A DNA stretch of 64,000 bases from Tubiluchus corallicola (taxonomy: Eukaryota; Priapulida; Priapulimorpha; Priapulimorphida; Tubiluchidae). This document shows positions 3,301 through 63,637 of this stretch, piece by piece. The notes below the pieces were generated by a model that was not told where the DNA came from, did no database searches, and was given only the letters and a program-made list of their open reading frames with translations. The stretch spans positions 930,501-994,500 of the forward strand of contig JAQGDQ010002367.1 of NCBI GenBank assembly GCA_030141605.1, read 5' to 3'. The first letter of the stretch is position 1. The number at the start of each line of letters is the position of its first letter. The position numbers and the translations under genes are program-made.

Positions 3301-6300
3301 GCTAGGTCAGTTAGGCTTTGTCCAGCCATCACTCAGCAGTTAGATCAGTTAGGCTTTGTCCAGCCATCAGTCGGCAGTTAGATCAGTTAGGCCTTGTTCA
3401 ACAATCTGTCAGCAGCTAGGTCAGTTAGGCTTTGTCCAGCCATCACTCAGCAGTTAGATCAGTTAGGCTTTGTCCAGCTATCAGTCGGCAGTTAGATCAG
3501 TTAGGCCTTGTTCAACAATCTGTCAGCAGCTAGATCAGTTAGGCTTTGTCCAGTCGGCAGCTAGATCAGTTAAGCCTTGTCCAACCATCACTCAGCAGTT
3601 AGATCAGTTAGGCTTTGTCCAGCCATCAGTCGGCAGCTAGATCAGTTGGCCTTGTCCAGCCCAGTCAGCAGTTAGATCAGTTAGGCCTTGTTCAACAATC
3701 TGTCAGCAGCTAGATCAGTTAGGCTTTGTCCAGTCATCAGTCGGCAGCTAGATCAGTTAGGCCTTGTCCAGCCATCAGTCGGCAGCTAGATCAGTTAGGC
3801 CTTGTCCAGCCATCAGTCGGCAGTTAGATCAGTTAGGCCTTGTCCAGCCATCAGTCGGCAGTTAGATCAGTTAGGCCTTGTCCAGCCATCAGTCAGCAGT
3901 TAGATCAGTTAGGCCTTGTTCAACAATCAGTCGGTAGCTAGATCAGTTAGGCTTTGTCCAGCCATCAGTCGACAATTAGTTCAGTTAGGCCATGTCCACC
4001 CACCACTCGGCATTCAGGTTACTTAGGCTTTGTCCAATCATCAATCTGCAGTTAGATCAGTTAGGCCTTGTTCAACACTCATTCGGCAGGTAGATCAGTT
4101 AGGCCTTGCCCAGCCATCAGTCAGCAGTTAGATCAGTTAGGCCTTGTTCAACAATCAGTCGGCAGCTAGATCAGTTAGGCTTTGTCCAGCCATCAGTCGG
4201 CAGTTAGTTCAGTTAGGCCATGTCCACCCACCACTCGGCATTCAGGTTACTTAGGCTTTGTCCAATCATCAATCTGCAGTTAGATCAGTTAGGCCTTGTT
4301 CAACAATCATTCGGCAGGTAGATCAGTTAGGCCTTGCCCAGCCATCAGTCAGCAGTTAGATCAGTTAGGCCTTGTTCAACAATCAGTCGGTAGCTAGATC
4401 AGTTAGGCCTTGTGCAGCCGTCAGTCGGCAGCTAGGTCAGTTAGGCTTTGTCCAGCTATCAGTCGGCAGCTAGATCACTTAGGCCTTGTTCAACAATCAG
4501 TCAGCAGCTAGGTCAGTTAGGCTTTGTCCAGCCATCACTCAGCAGTTAGATCAGTTAGGCTTTGTCCAGCCATCAGTCGGCAGTTAGATCAGTTAGGCCT
4601 TGTTCAACAATCTGTCAGCAGCTAGGTCAGTTAGGCTTTGTCCAGCCATCACTCAGCAGTTAGATCAGTTAGGCTTTGTCCAGCTATCAGTCGGCAGTTA
4701 GATCAGTTAGGCCTTGTTCAACAATCTGTCAGCAGCTAGATCAGTTAGGCTTTGTCCAGTCGGCAGCTAGATCAGTTAAGCCTTGTCCAACCATCACTCA
4801 GCAGTTAGATCAGTTAGGCTTTGTCCAGCCATCAGTCGGCAGCTAGATCAGTTGGCCTTGTCCAGTCAGCAGTTAGATCAGTTAGGCCTTGTTCAACAAT
4901 CTGTCAGCAGCTAGATCAGTTAGGCTTTGTCCAGCCATCAGTCGGCAGCTAGATCAGTTAGGCCTTGTCCAGCCATCAGTCGGCAGCTAGATCAGTTAGG
5001 CCTTGTCCAGCCATCAGTCGGCAGTTAGGTCAGTTAGGCTTTGTCCAGCCATCAGTCGGCAGTTAGATCAGTTAGGCCTTGTCCAGCCATCAGTCAGCAG
5101 TTAGGTCAGTTAGGCTTTGTCCAGCCATCAGTCGGCAGTTAGATCAGTTAGGCCTTTTCCAGCTAGTCATTTATTATCATAGTGACTAGGGTGTCACTTA
5201 AGTGCAGTGAATCGCACTTGTCTACAAGTTAGACCATAATGTTCTCCTAATGGATAATTACGTTAGTCATTCTCGTCAATCATGCACCAGAAAAACCATC
5301 TGGAAAGTTCCCTAATTCTTATTATAGGCACTTATGCAGCTAATGAAATGAGAGAAATTCTTTACTTTATTAGACAAAGTTAGACATTATATAGGGCAAA
5401 ACCCATTTTTTAAAAAAATAACGATCTTGACATTAACTATACTAAATGAATTGACAATTGAAATCATCATCCCTGGCTTAGAAGGACTTCACTTGAAATA
5501 GAACTTCACTTGACTTCACTTGACTATCAGCTAAGACTGGCTTGTCACTTTTAATGCACAAAGTTTTGACAAAGCTTTTGTTGTCTTCTTACCATCACAA
5601 TAAGTACTTGCTTACTTTAAATATGAGTCTATTATCTCTTTCTTGAACTGCTTCTATCCATTGTTTGATTTTGCCTTGTGTTTTGATCCTAGATGGCAGA
5701 AGTATTTTTCAAAAGTAAGAACACACTGAAGGAAGTTAGGCAATGTATCGTGCTCAAAAACGTCTAATAGTCAGGTCTGATTTGGGTCAAGCCTCAATCA
5801 AAGTCAAGTGTTACATTAAACTTCTTTTTTATATGCTACTTTAGTGGAAGGTGCTCTAAGAATCTCTCATCATTTTTGCGATGCATATGACCATTCATCC
5901 CCACAAATGACAAATTATTAAAAATCTTTGTTACTTTGCAAGAAACAATATTTCTTTTTTAACTGCGGGCTTTGAATATGTAAAGTAGATTCTGCATCTG
6001 TATGTATGTGGCATATGTATATGTATTATACTGAACACTGAAGAGCCTGAGTAATTACAGTAAATATATATATATATATACTCCTCTTATTGGCTACACA
6101 ATTTACTAAGATTTTTCATCAGTATATTGTGATGTTTTTACAGGGATTCAAGTGCTATAGGCAAAAGGCGTGCTATCCTAACCGATGTCAGTATTTGTTA
6201 CTTCTACCCGGTGTGGCACTAGCTGGTACTGGACTAATCATCTTCGCTTTTGTGGAGACTGAGAATAACTATCAGTATGTTCATAGCGCTTGGCACATTC

Positions 6301-6434
6301 TCATGGCCACCTGCATTCTCTTCATGCTTCCTGAGAACGATAAAAAGACGGTTGCTAGCAATCAATCGTCTGCCGAGGAGTTGACCGCCGACATCTCCAA
6401 TACGGACATGGCTAGTTTACTAGAGGATAAATGA
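361..6434 (+). CDS. TMEM8/PGAP6-family multipass membrane protein, last three coding exons (5' part outside window)
   Basis: Three exons join in phase: 361-539, 1879-2139 and 6144-6434 (stop TGA 6432-6434). Each has AG/GT splice sites, and the phases match (first exon enters in phase, the next two join at phase 0). The first exon begins with the end of an EGF-like unit (GYRGWDC), then a membrane segment. The reading then gives [23 protein letters not shown], an [11 protein letters not shown] stretch and [11 protein letters not shown], which are hallmarks of the C-terminal seven-helix region of TMEM8A/TMEM8B. That family belongs to the CREST putative hydrolases. PGAP6 (TMEM8A) is a GPI-specific phospholipase A2 at the cell surface, and myomaker is a shorter relative. 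The conserved Ser, Asp and His positions (S before FYHACD, HACD, HSAWH) are present, so the enzyme looks intact. The tail after the last helix is short and acidic (about 35 residues). The large extracellular N-terminal part must lie upstream of base 1. Family assignment is firm; which paralogue is not. Confidence 0.9.
2476..5166. repeat. 38-bp minisatellite with higher-order repeats, in a TMEM8-like intron
   Basis: About 70 tandem copies of a 38-bp unit fill most of the intron between exons 1879-2139 and 6144-6434. A typical unit reads TTAGGCCTTGTCCAGCCATC followed by AGTCGGCAGTTAGATCAG. Variant units recur in fixed order. The distinctive unit with AGGCCATGTCCACCC starts at 2781, 3009, 3987 and 4215, so there is a 228-bp sub-period (6 x 38) and a 1206-bp super-period seen twice (about 2740-3945 and 3946-5150). 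A shortened TTGGCC unit at 3646 and 4852 confirms the 1206-bp spacing. Every frame is broken by TAG or TGA, so it is not coding. Confidence 0.95.
6064..6080. repeat. (TA)n microsatellite
   Basis: A short run of alternating TA lies about 65 bases before the last TMEM8-like coding exon. Confidence 0.8.
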
Positions 6435-52990: not shown

Positions 52991-55900
52991 CTACTGATTT
53001 GGCCCTAACCCTTGGTTTTCTTTCTCAACATCTTGCTTCCCTTTTGAATTAGTAGAGCTCTCTGATGGCAGTGCTATTTGTTTTAAAAGTTTTCTTGGCT
53101 TAGGTTTCCTGCAAAGCAAAAAGTACAAGACTGAATAGGCCCACAGAATTTAGTTCACCATTAATATACAAAGCCCGACCAAAATTAACGTAGAACCCTA
53201 AGTACAATCCATAGTTTTTCTTCTTTCGACCAGATAATCAGATGTGGTATCAAACAATTAATAATTGTGGGGTTATTCTGACAATTTTAATCATATTTTC
53301 TTTTGAGCTTAAAATCATAAGCTTTATTGCAGTCATTTTCTGGTCATTGCTCTGTCAAAGAATGGTAAAATAAATGTTTGTGGGTGCATATCAGCAGCAG
53401 CATAGCATTTTTTAAATTTTTAATTCTATGTTCTTATGTTGGCCTAAAGGACATAACAGTACTTTATCACTATAAAAAGTATTGTTTTGAAGAAGTGCTA
53501 AACAACAATTACAAAGCCACAATAAATCATTGGAAGGTTTGTGAAAACAGCAGGAGTTACTGGAAACTAAATGTTACGAAGGAGACTTTCTTTTTAAATG
53601 TGAACGAGTAGTGCTCCACCTTACACAATTACACCTAATACTGCTGGTACCACCAGTATGCATCATTATTCATTACATATATGACTAACAAGATGCATTT
53701 GCCCAGAACAGTGCATGTTTTTTATGAACCAACACTGACTGTCTGTCTTTTTATTATAATGGACAATGTTTTTAAAAGGCAAAATAAAGAATATACTACT
53801 ACTACTACTACTAAAAGCAAAGAAACAAGCCCTGCCATTGGGTGCTATTTTTGAGCACTTGTCTTAAGTCGTAATTTGAAATTGAAACATTCAAGACTAA
53901 TTTACTCTAAACTGGGGAAAATTACTATTTACCTTTCAAACTTAATAACTCAGCTGGCTACATCGCTTTGACACTGAGCCCGCAATTTGCTTTTGAAAAC
54001 ACTAGCATTTGAGGCACTAATTACATCGTTCAGCAAGGTATTCCAGCAGGGAATAGCTCCTTTGGTGAAAAAATGACCTTTTATATTAGTATGATAGAAA
54101 CGCTGGAAAAGTTGTATCGAATATCCACGTAAATCATATTGACGATGAGTCGGGAAGAAGAGGTCTTACTCAAGATGGTCAACTCGTTCAAAAATTTTTA
54201 AACAATGAATGAGATTTATAGTTTTATGGTGATGTACTGTGGTGACCAGACAACTGATACATACTCAAGCTTTGGCCGAACCAGTTTTTTATACAGTGTT
54301 GGTTATACCAATATCCAGGAAAAAGGCTGTTGATATTTGTGCTAAACGTAATACTTTGATGTGCCCTGCAGTTTAACTTCTACAGAAATTGCTAGTTGAA
54401 TTGCTTGTGATATTTGTAAAAATAGTGGCATAAAGTTTGTGCACTTATGTTCTTACAAAGATTTGGTGAAGTATAAAAAATATAAAATTGATTTTGTTTG
54501 TGCTATTTGTGTTCCTGGTAGAAAGTCATCTAACAAGGAGCCGGATTCACAGGATACAAGTGACATCGTTCAATCTTGCGAAAATAAACTTGACCATTTG
54601 ATTTCTGTTCTCTTTGAAAATTTTAGCTGTATAGCAGACATTTCTTCTAATAGTTCTAGTGGCAGCAGTAGTTACTCTAGTGGCAATGGCAATCTTATTT
54701 CATCAAGTAATGCTAAGAACTTTTATAAAAATTGTTGTGTTTATAGTTTAGACAGAATTGTAGTTGTAAATAAAGTTGATGACCTTTGTGCCTTTAAAAA
54801 CAGTGCTGCTATAATAAAAGAATTGAAGAAGATTCCTTACATCTCCCAAAAAGTTGAATTGGCACATAGCTTAGCTGGTGGAGGTATTGCCCTTTATACT
54901 CATTAGGGTGAATCTGCTTCAGATATCATCAGTCACTGGCCTCGAGGTCAAGTGTATGGTAGTTCAGTTGTAGTCCGTCTGCCAAAGCGTGCTGATCCTA
55001 ACGCAAAATCTAATGTTTGTTACATTAAAAATGTACCTAGAGACAATTACTGGGATAATAATTGTGCAGCAGCTAAAAAAATCTTAATTTTCATCGGAAA
55101 AAGTTTCATGAGCGAAATCTTCCCCAGAACAAATTTAAATTGTTGGAAGCAGAAGTATGTTTTACTTACGCAATTGACATTGCTCTCCTGTTTTTGAGGA
55201 TTCTTGAGAAATTTGATATTCTTCAAAATTGTTTTTTGATGTAAAGCATATCTGCCAAAGAAATTTTGATGATAGTTTCAAAAGAAATGTTGAGGAAAAG
55301 CTAGCTTCAAAAGATGTTTGTCCAGCAAGGTCTGGAATTCATTGTTCTTTTGCACTAAAGGAGTATATAATGCAATTAGCCACTTGAAGGCAAGTAAATC
55401 ACCTGGTCCTGATGAATATCCTCCTGGGTTATTTATACACTGTGGGAGCAATTTGAAGCACATATTATTGAAGAGTTTTAAGTCATGGACCAATAGAATT
55501 CTACAGACAGCTTGGACTTGTGCAAATGTTAAGTTCATCAGGAAACAAGGCAAGGATGACTATTATGTACCCTCTTTTTATTGTCGTATTAACTTGACAT
55601 CATTCATTTGTAAAATTATGGTAAGATTAGTACTTTTTAAATTAAATACGGCAATTGATACATATAATATAATAATACTGATACACAACAAGATGGTTTT
55701 AGGAAGTTCTGTTCTATAATTCACCCTGTTTACGACTTTGTACAAACTATATGTGATGGCTTTAATAATGCTAATCAAACAGTAGCTTGTTTCTTGGATT
55801 TGGAGAAAGATTATGACCGTGTATGGCGAGATGGACTTCCTATCAAGATATATAATGTTCGCATTGCTGGCAGATTACAGTATGGATTAAAGGTTTCTTA

Positions 55901-58086
55901 TCAAACAGACATGCTAGACATCTGATTAATGGCTATCAAGGGCCAGTATTGCTTCTTCTAAGGGATTACCAAAAGTGAGTGTTATTTCAGCATCTTTATT
56001 CAACATTTTCATAGCTGAAATATGTTCAAGTCTGTACAGGAAAATCATTGCAAGCATGCAGATGATGGTACTTTATGGCACACTGATTCAGGTGTCATCA
56101 GTCTAGCTTCATTAGTTTGTTCTGATGTGGAACATATTATTAACTGGCGTTCTTTATGGCATATGTCACTTAATTTAAGTAAAACTGAAGTTACTGTGTT
56201 TAGTAGAGTTCCTAATATACTACCTAGTAATTCTCCTTTTTGTGTTTATAATGTGTTGTTAGAGCAAAATCAATTTCCAAAGCTACTTGGCATAACCCTA
56301 GATAAGAAATTAACCTTTCATCCCCCACACTGTCAAACTATGAATGAAAGCTAGCAAAGTTCCTTCAGTCGTTAGAGAAATAAGAGGTATTGTTAATATT
56401 TCAACTTTGTATAAATAAATGCCTTGTTTGTTCATTGATGAAATATGGTGTCATATAGTTAAACGCAAGGCTTTGTCTTTATGTCTTGATCTCCCTTCGA
56501 CTGCTGGTGTTGAAGTATTGGAGGTTGTTAGTAGTGTACCTCTGTTACAGAGCTTGCAAAAATTGAATCAAAACCACTATCTAATCCTCTGAAACAACAA
56601 CTAGAAGATTTTAAAGCAGTTGGTTTGGGTAATATCAGATTTGTTTCTCTTAAGGCAAAAGCTGCTTCTTTGGCATGGGAGGTGGAGAAGAACTGGAATG
56701 CTATTATTTCTCAAGTGGTTCCGGCAGTTGATTTCGATCTAAATGACAATTTTACAGATATTCCTGTGGCTAAACCTAACTATTGGAATGTACTAGGATC
56801 CTCAAACAATAGGTCAGAGAAGCACAAGAACTTCTTGGGAAAGCCTTTGTTATAAATTCTTTATGCAGTCTTTCAGATAATGCTGTTTTAGCATTTACAG
56901 ATGGTTCTTGTACAGACAATCCTGAACAATGTGGAACAGGAGCAGTAATTTATTCAAATATTCACAATTAATCTTTGTAGCTACAGATACTAAAAATGTT
57001 ACAGTTTTTTCAGATAGTAAATCTTCAGTAGCATTGTATCTTTAGGATGATCTTGTAACTGTTACGAAGATCTACATGACAGCATAAAAATTATGTTAAA
57101 TTTCATTATAGTATTGATATTCATGTTAACTTCTTTGTATAGATTCTTGGACATCGTAATATTATTAGAAATGATCTTACTGATTCCTTCACTAAAAGGG
57201 CTGCCCATGATGCTCAATTTGTGGTCATAAATTCCTGTATTTACAGTTTGCAAGATGTCAGGAATGCAAGCCGGTAACTTTACTACGTAAATGGTAGTTT
57301 CGACGGAATCACTAGCTTCAAATGGTAGATTCTTCTATAATTTGTGTTCACCAGTGGTTTTCAATAGAAGACTTGATTTTCAAAGTCACAGTTTTCCAAA
57401 CTTACGCAAGAGCTACCCTAAACTTAATTATTATTTTCATACAATTGGAAGTGTCGATTCTCCACCATGCGAGTGCGGTTCAATGAAATCTACAGAGCGC
57501 ATTTTTGTCTGTGTGTGTGTTTCATGCTAATCAAAGGGATGTGCTGCTATACAATATTTCCCGACATACTGGCTATCTAATTTCAAGCTAGTTGATATAT
57601 TGTCAAGTGAAGTCACTGATCAAGATGATGTTGATATTGAGGCCATAATAAAAGATCTTTGTTCTTTTATAGATAGCACTGAACATGTAAACAAGAAGAC
57701 ATTATTATATTGCGTCAGTGTTGGAGTCATAGCCCCGTATTCTCTTTATTTCAGCTTTTAGAAAGAAATTTTTCATTGTGATAAACAGCTCATATTGTGG
57801 TGATTAAAGCATTTATGTGAACATTTTGTCGATAAACATTGGTGTGGAGACTATAACTTTAAATGACATTATTTATTATTAAGTAATATTCTTACATTTG
57901 AGCTCCCATTAGTCTTGCTGTGCAAGGTGAGAAAATGTTATCAGTTGGACTTGTAAATTTTTCGCTCAGCTGCCTTCTTTTTACAGCGGCTGGCGTTGCC
58001 GATGCTGTTCCGCAATTTTGTGATGATGCCAAGTTATGGGCCTGGCTGACATCATTCAAAGAACCTGCGTCTTCTTTGGTTGACAT
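52991..58086 (-). CDS. Unrecognised 102-residue protein with RxL, SP and KEN-box motifs (two exons)
   Basis: Exon 1 is 58086-57896 and exon 2 is 53108-52991 (stop TAG). Exon 1 starts with an ATG with A at -3 and ends AT before GTAAGA. Exon 2 follows TTTGCAG and begins G, so the split codon is ATG and the frame stays open. The product is small, basic and probably disordered. KRRQL at 36-40 fits an RxL cyclin-docking site. SP dipeptides at 46-47 and 53-54 lie in TSPTDNIFSPCTARLMG. KPKPRKLLK at 65-73 is a possible nuclear signal. KEN at 93-95 fits an APC/C degron. These suggest a cell-cycle-regulated CDK substrate, but no family was recognised and short motifs are weak evidence. If the splice is wrong, exon 1 alone would give 64 residues. 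The 4.8 kb intron is filled with LINE debris. Confidence 0.6.
53600..53813 (+). mobile_element. LINE 3' tail with (ACT)n
   Basis: AT-rich 3'-UTR-like sequence ends AAAATAAAGAATATACTACT and continues as a run of ACT triplets (53792-53813). A hexamer followed by a simple repeat is the usual 3' end of several LINE clades. Coding remnants upstream (53378-53611) are not clear. Confidence 0.45.
53940..54310 (-). mobile_element. 3' fragment of a second LINE (ORF2 C-terminus), minus strand
   Basis: Read on the minus strand from about 54300: KKLVRPKLEYVSVVWSPQY, then after a frame slip FFPTHRQYDLRGYSIQLFQ and FFTKGAIPCWNTLLND, ending near 53955. This order (R.KLEY...W.P / YDLRG / WN.L) is the C-terminal signature of CR1/jockey-like reverse transcriptase ORFs. 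At least one stop and one frameshift break it. It abuts the plus-strand LINE that starts near 54.3 kb. Confidence 0.75.
54330..57770 (+). mobile_element. Decayed LINE with ORF1, reverse transcriptase and RNase H, endonuclease missing
   Basis: Plus strand. A Cys/His finger (CDICKN...VHLCSY...FVCAIC, about 54410-54510) opens an ORF1-like part. A second ORF1 block holds RLPKRADPNAKSNVCY (about 54975-55020). Reverse transcriptase follows: LKASKSPGPDEYPPG (about 55385), YCRINLTSFICKI (about 55580), LDLEKDYDRVWRDGL (about 55800) and an active-site HADD in place of the usual YADD (about 56055). Then LLGITLDKKLTFHP (about 56285). An RNase H domain shows AFTDGSCTDNPEQCGTGAV (about 56890) and LGHRNIIRNDLTDS (about 57150). 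A C-terminal cysteine cluster (PPCECGSMKST, about 57460) closes it. Many stops and frameshifts make it inactive. Only about 150 bases separate ORF1 from RT, so the endonuclease is deleted. RNase H points toward I/jockey-group relatives. Confidence 0.85.
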
Positions 58087-61452: not shown

Positions 61453-63637
61453 CTACATAAGATCCGGGAACAAGTCTGAAAAAGACTCTTGCCAAGCTTC
61501 TTCATCAGTAGCTGGGGATGCTGCACTTACAGGTGAGCCAAGATCACTTTCACCTGTGCTATACCCAGATTCCGAAGACGTGTTGGGCGACTTGCCATGT
61601 ATTCCAGGCGTGTTTAAAGGTGAACACGAAGACAACATATTATCCCATATGCTGGGATTGTAGTGCGTATTAACCTTTAATGGAGTGTTAATATCGGTTG
61701 ATAGTTCACTACGAATTCCTTCAATACCGGTACAGGATACATTAGAAAATCCACCAGATTGCAGAAAAGAATCAAACTCACTAAGATCAAGATCCATTAA
61801 TTCTGAAAAATCATCAGTTGATGGCAAAGTATTGCCAAGTTCTGTGTATTCTGTAAGAGAATTTCCTCTATAAAGTACATCGACTTCTGAAGAAGTGTCT
61901 TTGTTAGCACTATAATTATCATTAGTGCAACTGATATCCTGATCGACAATGGAAACACTTTCCGCTTCTGTTTTTACTTCTTCTTCATGATCAATTGAAG
62001 TGAGCTCATCGGCATTTTCAGCCTTGTAGTAAATGTGGTCGAATCTTATGAATTCATTGATGGCGTCCACATTCTTTGGTGTGCTCCCCACCATTTTATG
62101 ATTGGATTTAAAACGCTTGTCTTCAACTTTGGCATTCTGAAATAAAAATGATTTATAAATATCTTGCTAAATTGAAACACTCAACGTAACAGTAAAAGTA
62201 GAATCTTAAAATCCAGATACAAAAACTTTGCCGTCACGCACACTTCTACATGTGTATTTGTGCACAAGAAATTTATTAAAAATAGCTAAGACAACAGCTG
62301 ACATTCAACAAGTCCTTCAGTTTTCTTAAAAATTTAAACAGCCTGACTCCTGACAAATTTAAACTGATCATACAGTATGTCAAAAATGAACGCAATACGG
62401 ATTTTACAAATATATCTTTTACAGTTTTAAGAGATAAAATCGCCAACAAACCTGCTCTGACTGTTCAACTTCATCATCCGTTTCAGACGAAAGTCCGTCA
62501 ACGATGAAGGATAAGAGATCTCGCTCAGTACAATCAGGAACAGAAACGTTACTGAAAATGCCATCCAATGAGAGACTGCACGAGCCTGCTCCTGCTGCAG
62601 AGGAAGCATTTTGAATACTGCGGATTCAACTGACTCGTCCTTTCTCTCACTGGGGACATCATCTACACCCAAACGCTTCTTCAGTATTGCGTTTTCACCA
62701 CGCAGCAACTTAACTTCGTCTGTAAGTGCTTTGTTGTCAGACTGTAATGATCGATTCTGTAAAAATAAATTAAAGAGAGTTTATAGATAAAAGAAAAAAC
62801 CTAAAAATTGCAAAAAATACAGTAAACTATATATAACTCCAACTGGTATAACAGAATTCTTGCGCATCTCGAACAGATACTCGTGGAACAAATTTTTTTC
62901 CTTTAACAAGCAACTCGAAATCTCTAACTGAAACCGAAATCCCGGTCCAATTCTTAAGAATCTGATTGAAATTGCCTCGCTTATCTCGAACAGCCTCCCA
63001 AGCAAGAAGTCCTACGCAAAAGTGTGCACCACATTATGCTAGTTTCAGCAAAAATGCTAAAATTTCTTGTATTACCTTAGCAGAGCATTGCAAACACCAC
63101 GGCTCAACGAACGTGGTTTAATGTAGATCACAATATTGTTATTGCAAAATTGTTAAAACCATGCTACTCAGACTACAATAAAGGTGGGTCAGTCATTTTA
63201 TTTTTGGTTTGTGTTAGGTATTTGATTAAAGGCTTAGTTTGTCACTTTCGCAGGCTGTAGTGTTACTAGTGTATTGTCCGACACTGATGAATGACTCAGT
63301 CTTGTTTTCTTACGAACATCGTCTTACTCGTACTTTCGCATAACTCAAACAAATTTTCCGGTCCCGAGGTGTTTAAGTTAAACGTAGCTTACTGTAGTGA
63401 TCAGTTTAGCTCTTTTAAATTCAACTTTTGTGATGTTTTGACCAATTTACTCCGAGTCAATTGTCAGATGTGATAATGTCATAACGAAAAAATCAGCTAA
63501 TTAGTACAAAATTTGAAACACAGATAAATGAATTATCCACCTGTTTTTCCAGTTGCACAATGGCAGTCTCCAGCATTTCCATCCTGGCCTTTTTACGGTC
63601 TCTAGCTGTCTGAGCAGCTTCCCTATTCTTCATTTTC
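61453..63637 (-). CDS. XBP1: XBP1, bZIP transcription factor of the unfolded protein response (3' three exons; 5' part outside window)
   Basis: Exons on the minus strand: 63637-63541, 62756-62452 and 62136-61453 (stop TAG). The first carries the basic region MKNREAAQTARDRKKARM and the start of the leucine zipper, nearly identical to the XBP1 family. The zipper continues in the second (NRSLQSDNKALTDEVKLL). All joins are phase-consistent. Exon 2 carries the unconventional IRE1 intron (62598-62620). Removing it leaves 282 nt and reads through (VESAAGAGSCSLSLDGIFS) into exon 3. Exon 3 encodes 227 residues, acidic and Ser/Thr-rich, ending ESFSDLFPDLM, which resembles the ELFPQL end of vertebrate XBP1s. 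XBP1s acts in the nucleus on ER chaperone and ERAD genes. Without removal, exon 2 encodes a hydrophobic segment and exon 3 starts an alternative frame with an arrest-like peptide. The start codon exon must be beyond base 64000. Confidence 0.95.
62046..62608 (-). CDS. XBP1: XBP1u-specific alternative frame: hydrophobic segment and arrest-like C-terminus
   Basis: If the 23-nt intron stays, exon 2 continues in another frame from inside the IRE1 intron (KMLPLQQEQARAVSHW). It includes a hydrophobic stretch (WMAFSVTFLFLIVLS, about 62565-62521), the position of HR2 in vertebrate XBP1u. After conventional splicing to 62136 this frame reads MPKLKTSVLNPIIKW and then WGAHQRMWTPSMNS with stop TAA at 62048-62046. 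The last peptide (W at 62090 to N ending 62052) matches the mammalian XBP1u arrest peptide WGRHQPSWKPLMN at WG-HQ--W-P-MN. In mammals HR2 and translational pausing bring the mRNA to the ER membrane for IRE1. Overlap with the XBP1s frame makes this dual-coding. Confidence 0.85.
62598..62620 (-). other. XBP1: IRE1-dependent 23-nt cytoplasmic intron of XBP1
   Basis: On the minus strand the sequence TTGAAT-CCGCAGT-ATTCAA (62629-62611) forms a 6-bp stem with a seven-base CNGCAGN loop. TTCCT-CTGCAGC-AGGAG (62605-62589) forms a 5-bp stem (one G-U) with the second loop. Cleavage after the third loop base, the IRE1 rule, removes 62620-62598, 23 nt. This shifts the frame exactly as the 26-nt vertebrate intron does (both are 2 modulo 3). 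Confidence 0.93.

Follow-up and report, generated by a model that had tools for sequence, protein, structure and literature searches.

A predicted XBP1 orthologue of Tubiluchus corallicola with a vertebrate-like candidate arrest peptide at the end of its unspliced frame

Introduction

Does the unspliced frame of a priapulid XBP1 gene end in a homologue of the vertebrate XBP1u arrest peptide, or does its likeness to the human peptide follow from the XBP1s frame that is read from the same bases? The gene lies on the minus strand of a 64,000-nucleotide stretch of Tubiluchus corallicola DNA (the window), which includes its 3' part. Hydrophobic region 2 (HR2) and a C-terminal pausing region with conserved L246 and W256 were described for Drosophila by Coelho et al. 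2014, and alanine mutants of human L246 and W256 lose pausing (PMC4138184). In fly, zebrafish, mouse and human, Chyzynska et al. 2021 observed a peak of ribosome occupancy at the aligned position, and they narrowed the shared residues to five, at -2, -4, -7, -10 and -11 from the P site (PMC8152447; the 'Glu' printed at -7 is taken here as Gln253). Eight optimal positions in human XBP1u were identified by Shanmuganathan et al. 2019 (PMC6624018), and a case for XBP1 as a dual-coding gene was made in 2006 by Nekrutenko and He (Trends Genet, as cited in PMC2329644).

Results

We examined the gene structure by joining three predicted exons, which form one continuous frame through the bZIP (Table 1). 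When searched against Pfam, the joined translation matched bZIP_1 (E 5.7e-11) and also bZIP_2, and the XBP1-type bZIP motif, KNR.AAQTARDRKKARM, was found here as KMKNREAAQTARDRKKARM. The coordinates of the original prediction were upheld: on the minus strand, a TTTCAG acceptor precedes exon C, whose first base is 62136, a GT donor follows the last base of exon B, 62452, and the unspliced (u) frame reaches TAA at 62048-62046, giving a product that ends in LPLQQEQARAVSHWMAFSVTFLFLIVLSEISYPSSLTDFRLKRMMKLNSQSRMPKLKTSVLNPIIKWWGAHQRMWTPSMNS. Retention of the intron between these exons would end the u frame after FVGDFIS. XBP1 exon 1 was not located. A search for relatives with the u-form protein among viral contigs and genome contigs detected none, as expected for an animal gene. 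The locus was found three times in the assembly (contigs C1787, C2138 and C2264; loci L009 and L010), most likely as redundant haplotype scaffolds and not gene copies; with 0 differences over 2701 bases, polymorphism among the three was uninformative as a test of constraint.

Table 1. Predicted features of the XBP1 gene, in window positions
Feature	Positions	Strand	Content	Remarks
XBP1 exon A (predicted)	63541..63637	-	basic region and leucine zipper start	AG/GT bounded
XBP1 exon B (predicted)	62452..62756	-	zipper, IRE1 intron, HR2	AG/GT bounded; in one frame with its neighbours A and C
IRE1-excised intron (predicted), 23 nt, CAGTATTCAAAATGCTTCCTCTG	62598..62620	-	cuts CCG/CAG...CTG/CAG	frame shift from u to s
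u-frame HR2 (SHWMAFSVTFLFLIVLSEISYPSS)	62502..62573	-	hydrophobic region 2	best 19-residue Kyte-Doolittle 1.85 (human 1.62)
XBP1 spliceosomal intron (predicted)	62137..62451	-	separates HR2 from pausing tail	GT...AG
XBP1 exon C coding part, s frame	61453..62136	-	C-terminal domain of XBP1s	stop 61455-61453
XBP1u arrest-peptide core (candidate) WGAHQRMWTPSMN	62052..62090	-	equivalent to human 249-261	8/13 identical
u-frame stop TAA	62046..62048	-		one codon (Ser) after Asn codon

Removal of the 23-nt intron from exon B opens the long XBP1s (s) frame, which in exon C forms part of a 237-aa stretch from stop to stop (61453-62166). Twin hairpins with 7-nt loops are the known form of IRE1 substrates. 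In the minimum free energy fold, the RNA around both cuts forms two hairpins, whose 7-nt loops read CCGCAGU and CUGCAGC, and the site thus has the features by which metazoan XBP1 is recognized: an IRE1 intron of 23-26 nt within such hairpins and a frame shift upon its removal. The hairpin pair was no more stable than shuffled sequences (not significant), and the evidence for the IRE1 site is therefore its loops and motif. By these sequence features, the gene is an orthologue of metazoan XBP1. An IRE1 RNase (KEN) domain was detected in the same genome (contig C2087, E=3e-39). Six further Ribonuc_2-5A matches of equal score (E 3.7e-6) were found in 325-aa frames (contigs C1752, C1831, C1974, C2072, C2074 and C2107) and may stem from a repeated element or from redundancy in the assembly.

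We compared the end of the unspliced frame, PIIKWWGAHQRMWTPSMNS (tail RMPKLKTSVLNPIIKWWGAHQRMWTPSMNS) followed by the stop, to human XBP1u. The comparison sequence was given the native codon, AGC, at human position 255. Its other residues are those of the construct printed in PMC6624018, which carries S255A. Over the core, 8 of 13 residues were identical to human WGRHQPSWKPLMN (W249, G250, H252, Q253, W256, P258, M260 and N261), including all five that fly and vertebrates have in common (W249, G250, Q253, W256 and P258). Nine identities in 13 had been claimed originally; the ninth match, P244, is upstream of the core and contributes to a BLASTP alignment of 9/18 (E=2e-4, for this single comparison). 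The stop does fall one codon after the matching Asn, as predicted. Among 53,552 stop-free 13-mers from the six frames of the window, one had 8 identities and the next best had 5. At the positions optimal in human, 6 of 8 residues were kept (P244, W249, G250, H252, W256 and P258), the departures being Y241V and R251A; position 246 is Ile instead of the human Leu, a conservative change. No match was found in the PDB when the 75-aa tail was searched by phmmer; the search with the human tail peptide, which finds 6R5Q, served only to confirm the published structure.

HR2 was examined for its distance from the tail, with its end defined from the best 19-residue hydrophobic stretch. By this measure, 52 residues separate HR2 from the A-site Asn, compared to 53 in human (52 as published), a spacing that would place HR2 outside the ribosomal tunnel at the pause. 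Given the s frame, the hydrophobicity of HR2 was not significant (P=0.14) and is partly forced by that frame, and the openness of the u frame was marginal (P=0.05); both were rejected as independent proofs because they are weak.

We next consider whether the u-frame likeness to human could be a by-product of amino-acid conservation in XBP1s, the tail having no pausing function of its own. The same bases read in the s frame encode MVGSTPKNVDAINEF, in agreement with the original prediction. We kept the s-frame peptide constant and drew new synonymous codons for it 100,000 times, a test that compares two species and uses the codon usage of one gene, the XBP1 studied here. At least 8 u-frame identities were obtained in 0.13% of draws, at least 5 in the first nine positions (WG.HQ..W) in 0.10% (P=0.001), and all five fly-vertebrate residues together in 0.02% (0.0002). 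Over these first positions the u frame matches human at 5 of 9 residues and the s frame at 1 of 8 (GSTPKNVD vs GTSSAKLE), a result that the by-product explanation does not account for. The explanation does hold for the last four positions, PLMN, where the 3 of 4 matches observed were reached in 38% of draws (P=0.38). P.MN and the stop region overlap a conserved s-frame motif, AINEFIRFDHIYYK, that resembles vertebrate XBP1s. The AINE part of this motif was checked against the published human construct; since the same bases encode it, P.MN is largely explained by the s frame. When the u frame was fixed instead, the s-frame AINE match had P=0.015, whereas no excess was seen over the first eight residues of the s frame (1 identity vs 2.3 expected). 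The forced share of HR2 hydrophobicity also fits a by-product, which we nonetheless consider very improbable as an account of the whole tail.

Taken together, these comparisons argue for constraint on both frames, each over its own stretch and the two side by side: the u frame constrains the 5' part, where the s frame leaves WG.HQ..W unexplained, and the s frame is the main constraint on the 3' part, where it largely explains P.MN. The identification of an XBP1u pausing tail that is dual-coded with XBP1s is well supported. The stronger claim that selection must act on both frames holds only stretch by stretch, with the u frame leading over WG.HQ..W and the s frame over P.MN.

We also weighed whether the tail is homologous, with pausing lost or weakened in this lineage and XBP1 mRNA reaching IRE1 by another route. 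Met at 255, Val at 241 and Ala at 251 would fit such a loss. In the human P254V background, no substitute for Ala255 left a detectable arrest under force, and C247K was among the strongest enhancers of pausing in the S255A background (PMC6624018). The residue at 247 here is Lys, identical to this enhancing variant. Met255 could thus make the pause weak unless Arg254 and Lys247 compensate, and pause strength is not predictable from a strong enhancer combined with a residue at a position that is intolerant in one background. In fly, deletion of HR2 and the tail only lowered splicing, from about 40% of clones to 23% (PMC4138184), and the Drosophila Excision101 mutant, which still splices in part, suggests that other routes are possible. 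By contrast, the core has been kept against a diverging s frame, which implies continuing selection on the peptide, and Lys247 likewise argues against loss; we therefore regard lost or weakened pausing as very unlikely.

Other features were observed in the window and genome. Fragments like the reverse transcriptase of non-LTR retrotransposons (e.g., LKASKSPGPDEYPPGLF) were found at 54400-56354 of the plus strand and at 1-240 of locus L009, and their single frames gave no match in Pfam. An exon at 6051-6434 of the plus strand matched Pfam DUF3522, a membrane protein family (E 7.9e-9). Most classes of Hox genes were represented in the genome (contigs C1217, C1190, C2201 and C1343); by our own reading, Scr-, ftz/Lox5- and Antp-like genes are on one contig, pb- and Hox3-like genes on another, and Ubx/abd-A-like and Abd-B-like genes apart. 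The Abd-B type homeodomain was best matched by Drosophila Abd-B and not vertebrate Hox9, and the Ubx/abd-A type carries a Ubx-like extension, KKENQALKEMKEQ. These two homeodomains tentatively indicate a protostome, probably an ecdysozoan. The mitochondrial COX1 family, sought so that the genetic code could place the animal, was not found.

Discussion

From features that are read in the DNA, namely the structure of the gene, its IRE1 site, the spacing of HR2, the match to the arrest peptide and the genomic IRE1 RNase domain, we estimate a probability of roughly nine in ten that this XBP1 orthologue has an unspliced frame ending in an arrest peptide homologous to those of vertebrate and fly XBP1u, with the pausing mechanism proposed for them. 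We infer that pausing, SRP recruitment and splicing by IRE1 would occur in this animal as follows. With Met in the P site and Asn in the A site, a turn of the W249-W256 type in the exit tunnel would slow the formation of the peptide bond. Some 52 residues upstream, HR2 would by then be outside the tunnel and would recruit SRP, and the ribosome-mRNA complex would reach the ER. There, IRE1 would remove the 23-nt intron, and translation would shift to XBP1s.

An age for the mechanism beyond that of vertebrates, as originally suggested, is supported. It does not stand as a new inference, since the Drosophila tail and its ribosome-profiling peak are published (PMC4138184, PMC8152447), and the known age is unchanged beyond the fly data. 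The contribution here is modest, a protostome with vertebrate-like Met-Asn at the predicted P and A sites and Met at 255. Its sequence helps in telling residues that the u frame maintains on its own account (W249, G250, H252, Q253 and W256) from possible riders of the s frame (P258, M260 and N261), and the tail is a natural variant (K247, A251, R254 and M255) for tests of pause strength. The protostome-deuterostome ancestor may have had a vertebrate-type Met-Asn tail, from which the fly is derived and which this lineage re-tuned by K247, R254 and M255 with the turn kept, a scenario for which we see the case as evenly balanced.

Compared to the human and vertebrate arrest peptide (PDB 6R5Q; PMC6624018), the predicted system shares the bZIP, IRE1 hairpins, HR2, the core WG.HQ..W.P.MN, an HR2-to-A-site spacing of 52-53, Met at the P site and Asn at the A site (predicted here), and a stop at or just after Asn, with an extra Ser before it here. 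It differs in an IRE1 intron of 23 nt instead of 26 nt and in V241, I246, K247, W248, A251, R254, M255, T257 and S259. The Drosophila Xbp1u tail, for which the pause has been demonstrated, has the five shared residues in common with it (PMC4138184; PMC8152447), yet differs in its P- and A-site residues and has Ala at 255, whereas vertebrate-like Met-Asn and Met at 255 are found here. In mammalian XBP1u and XBP1s, both frames of one stretch are likewise constrained, according to Nekrutenko and He 2006 as cited; here, over a deep divergence, the constraint appears separable into parts led by the u frame and by the s frame.
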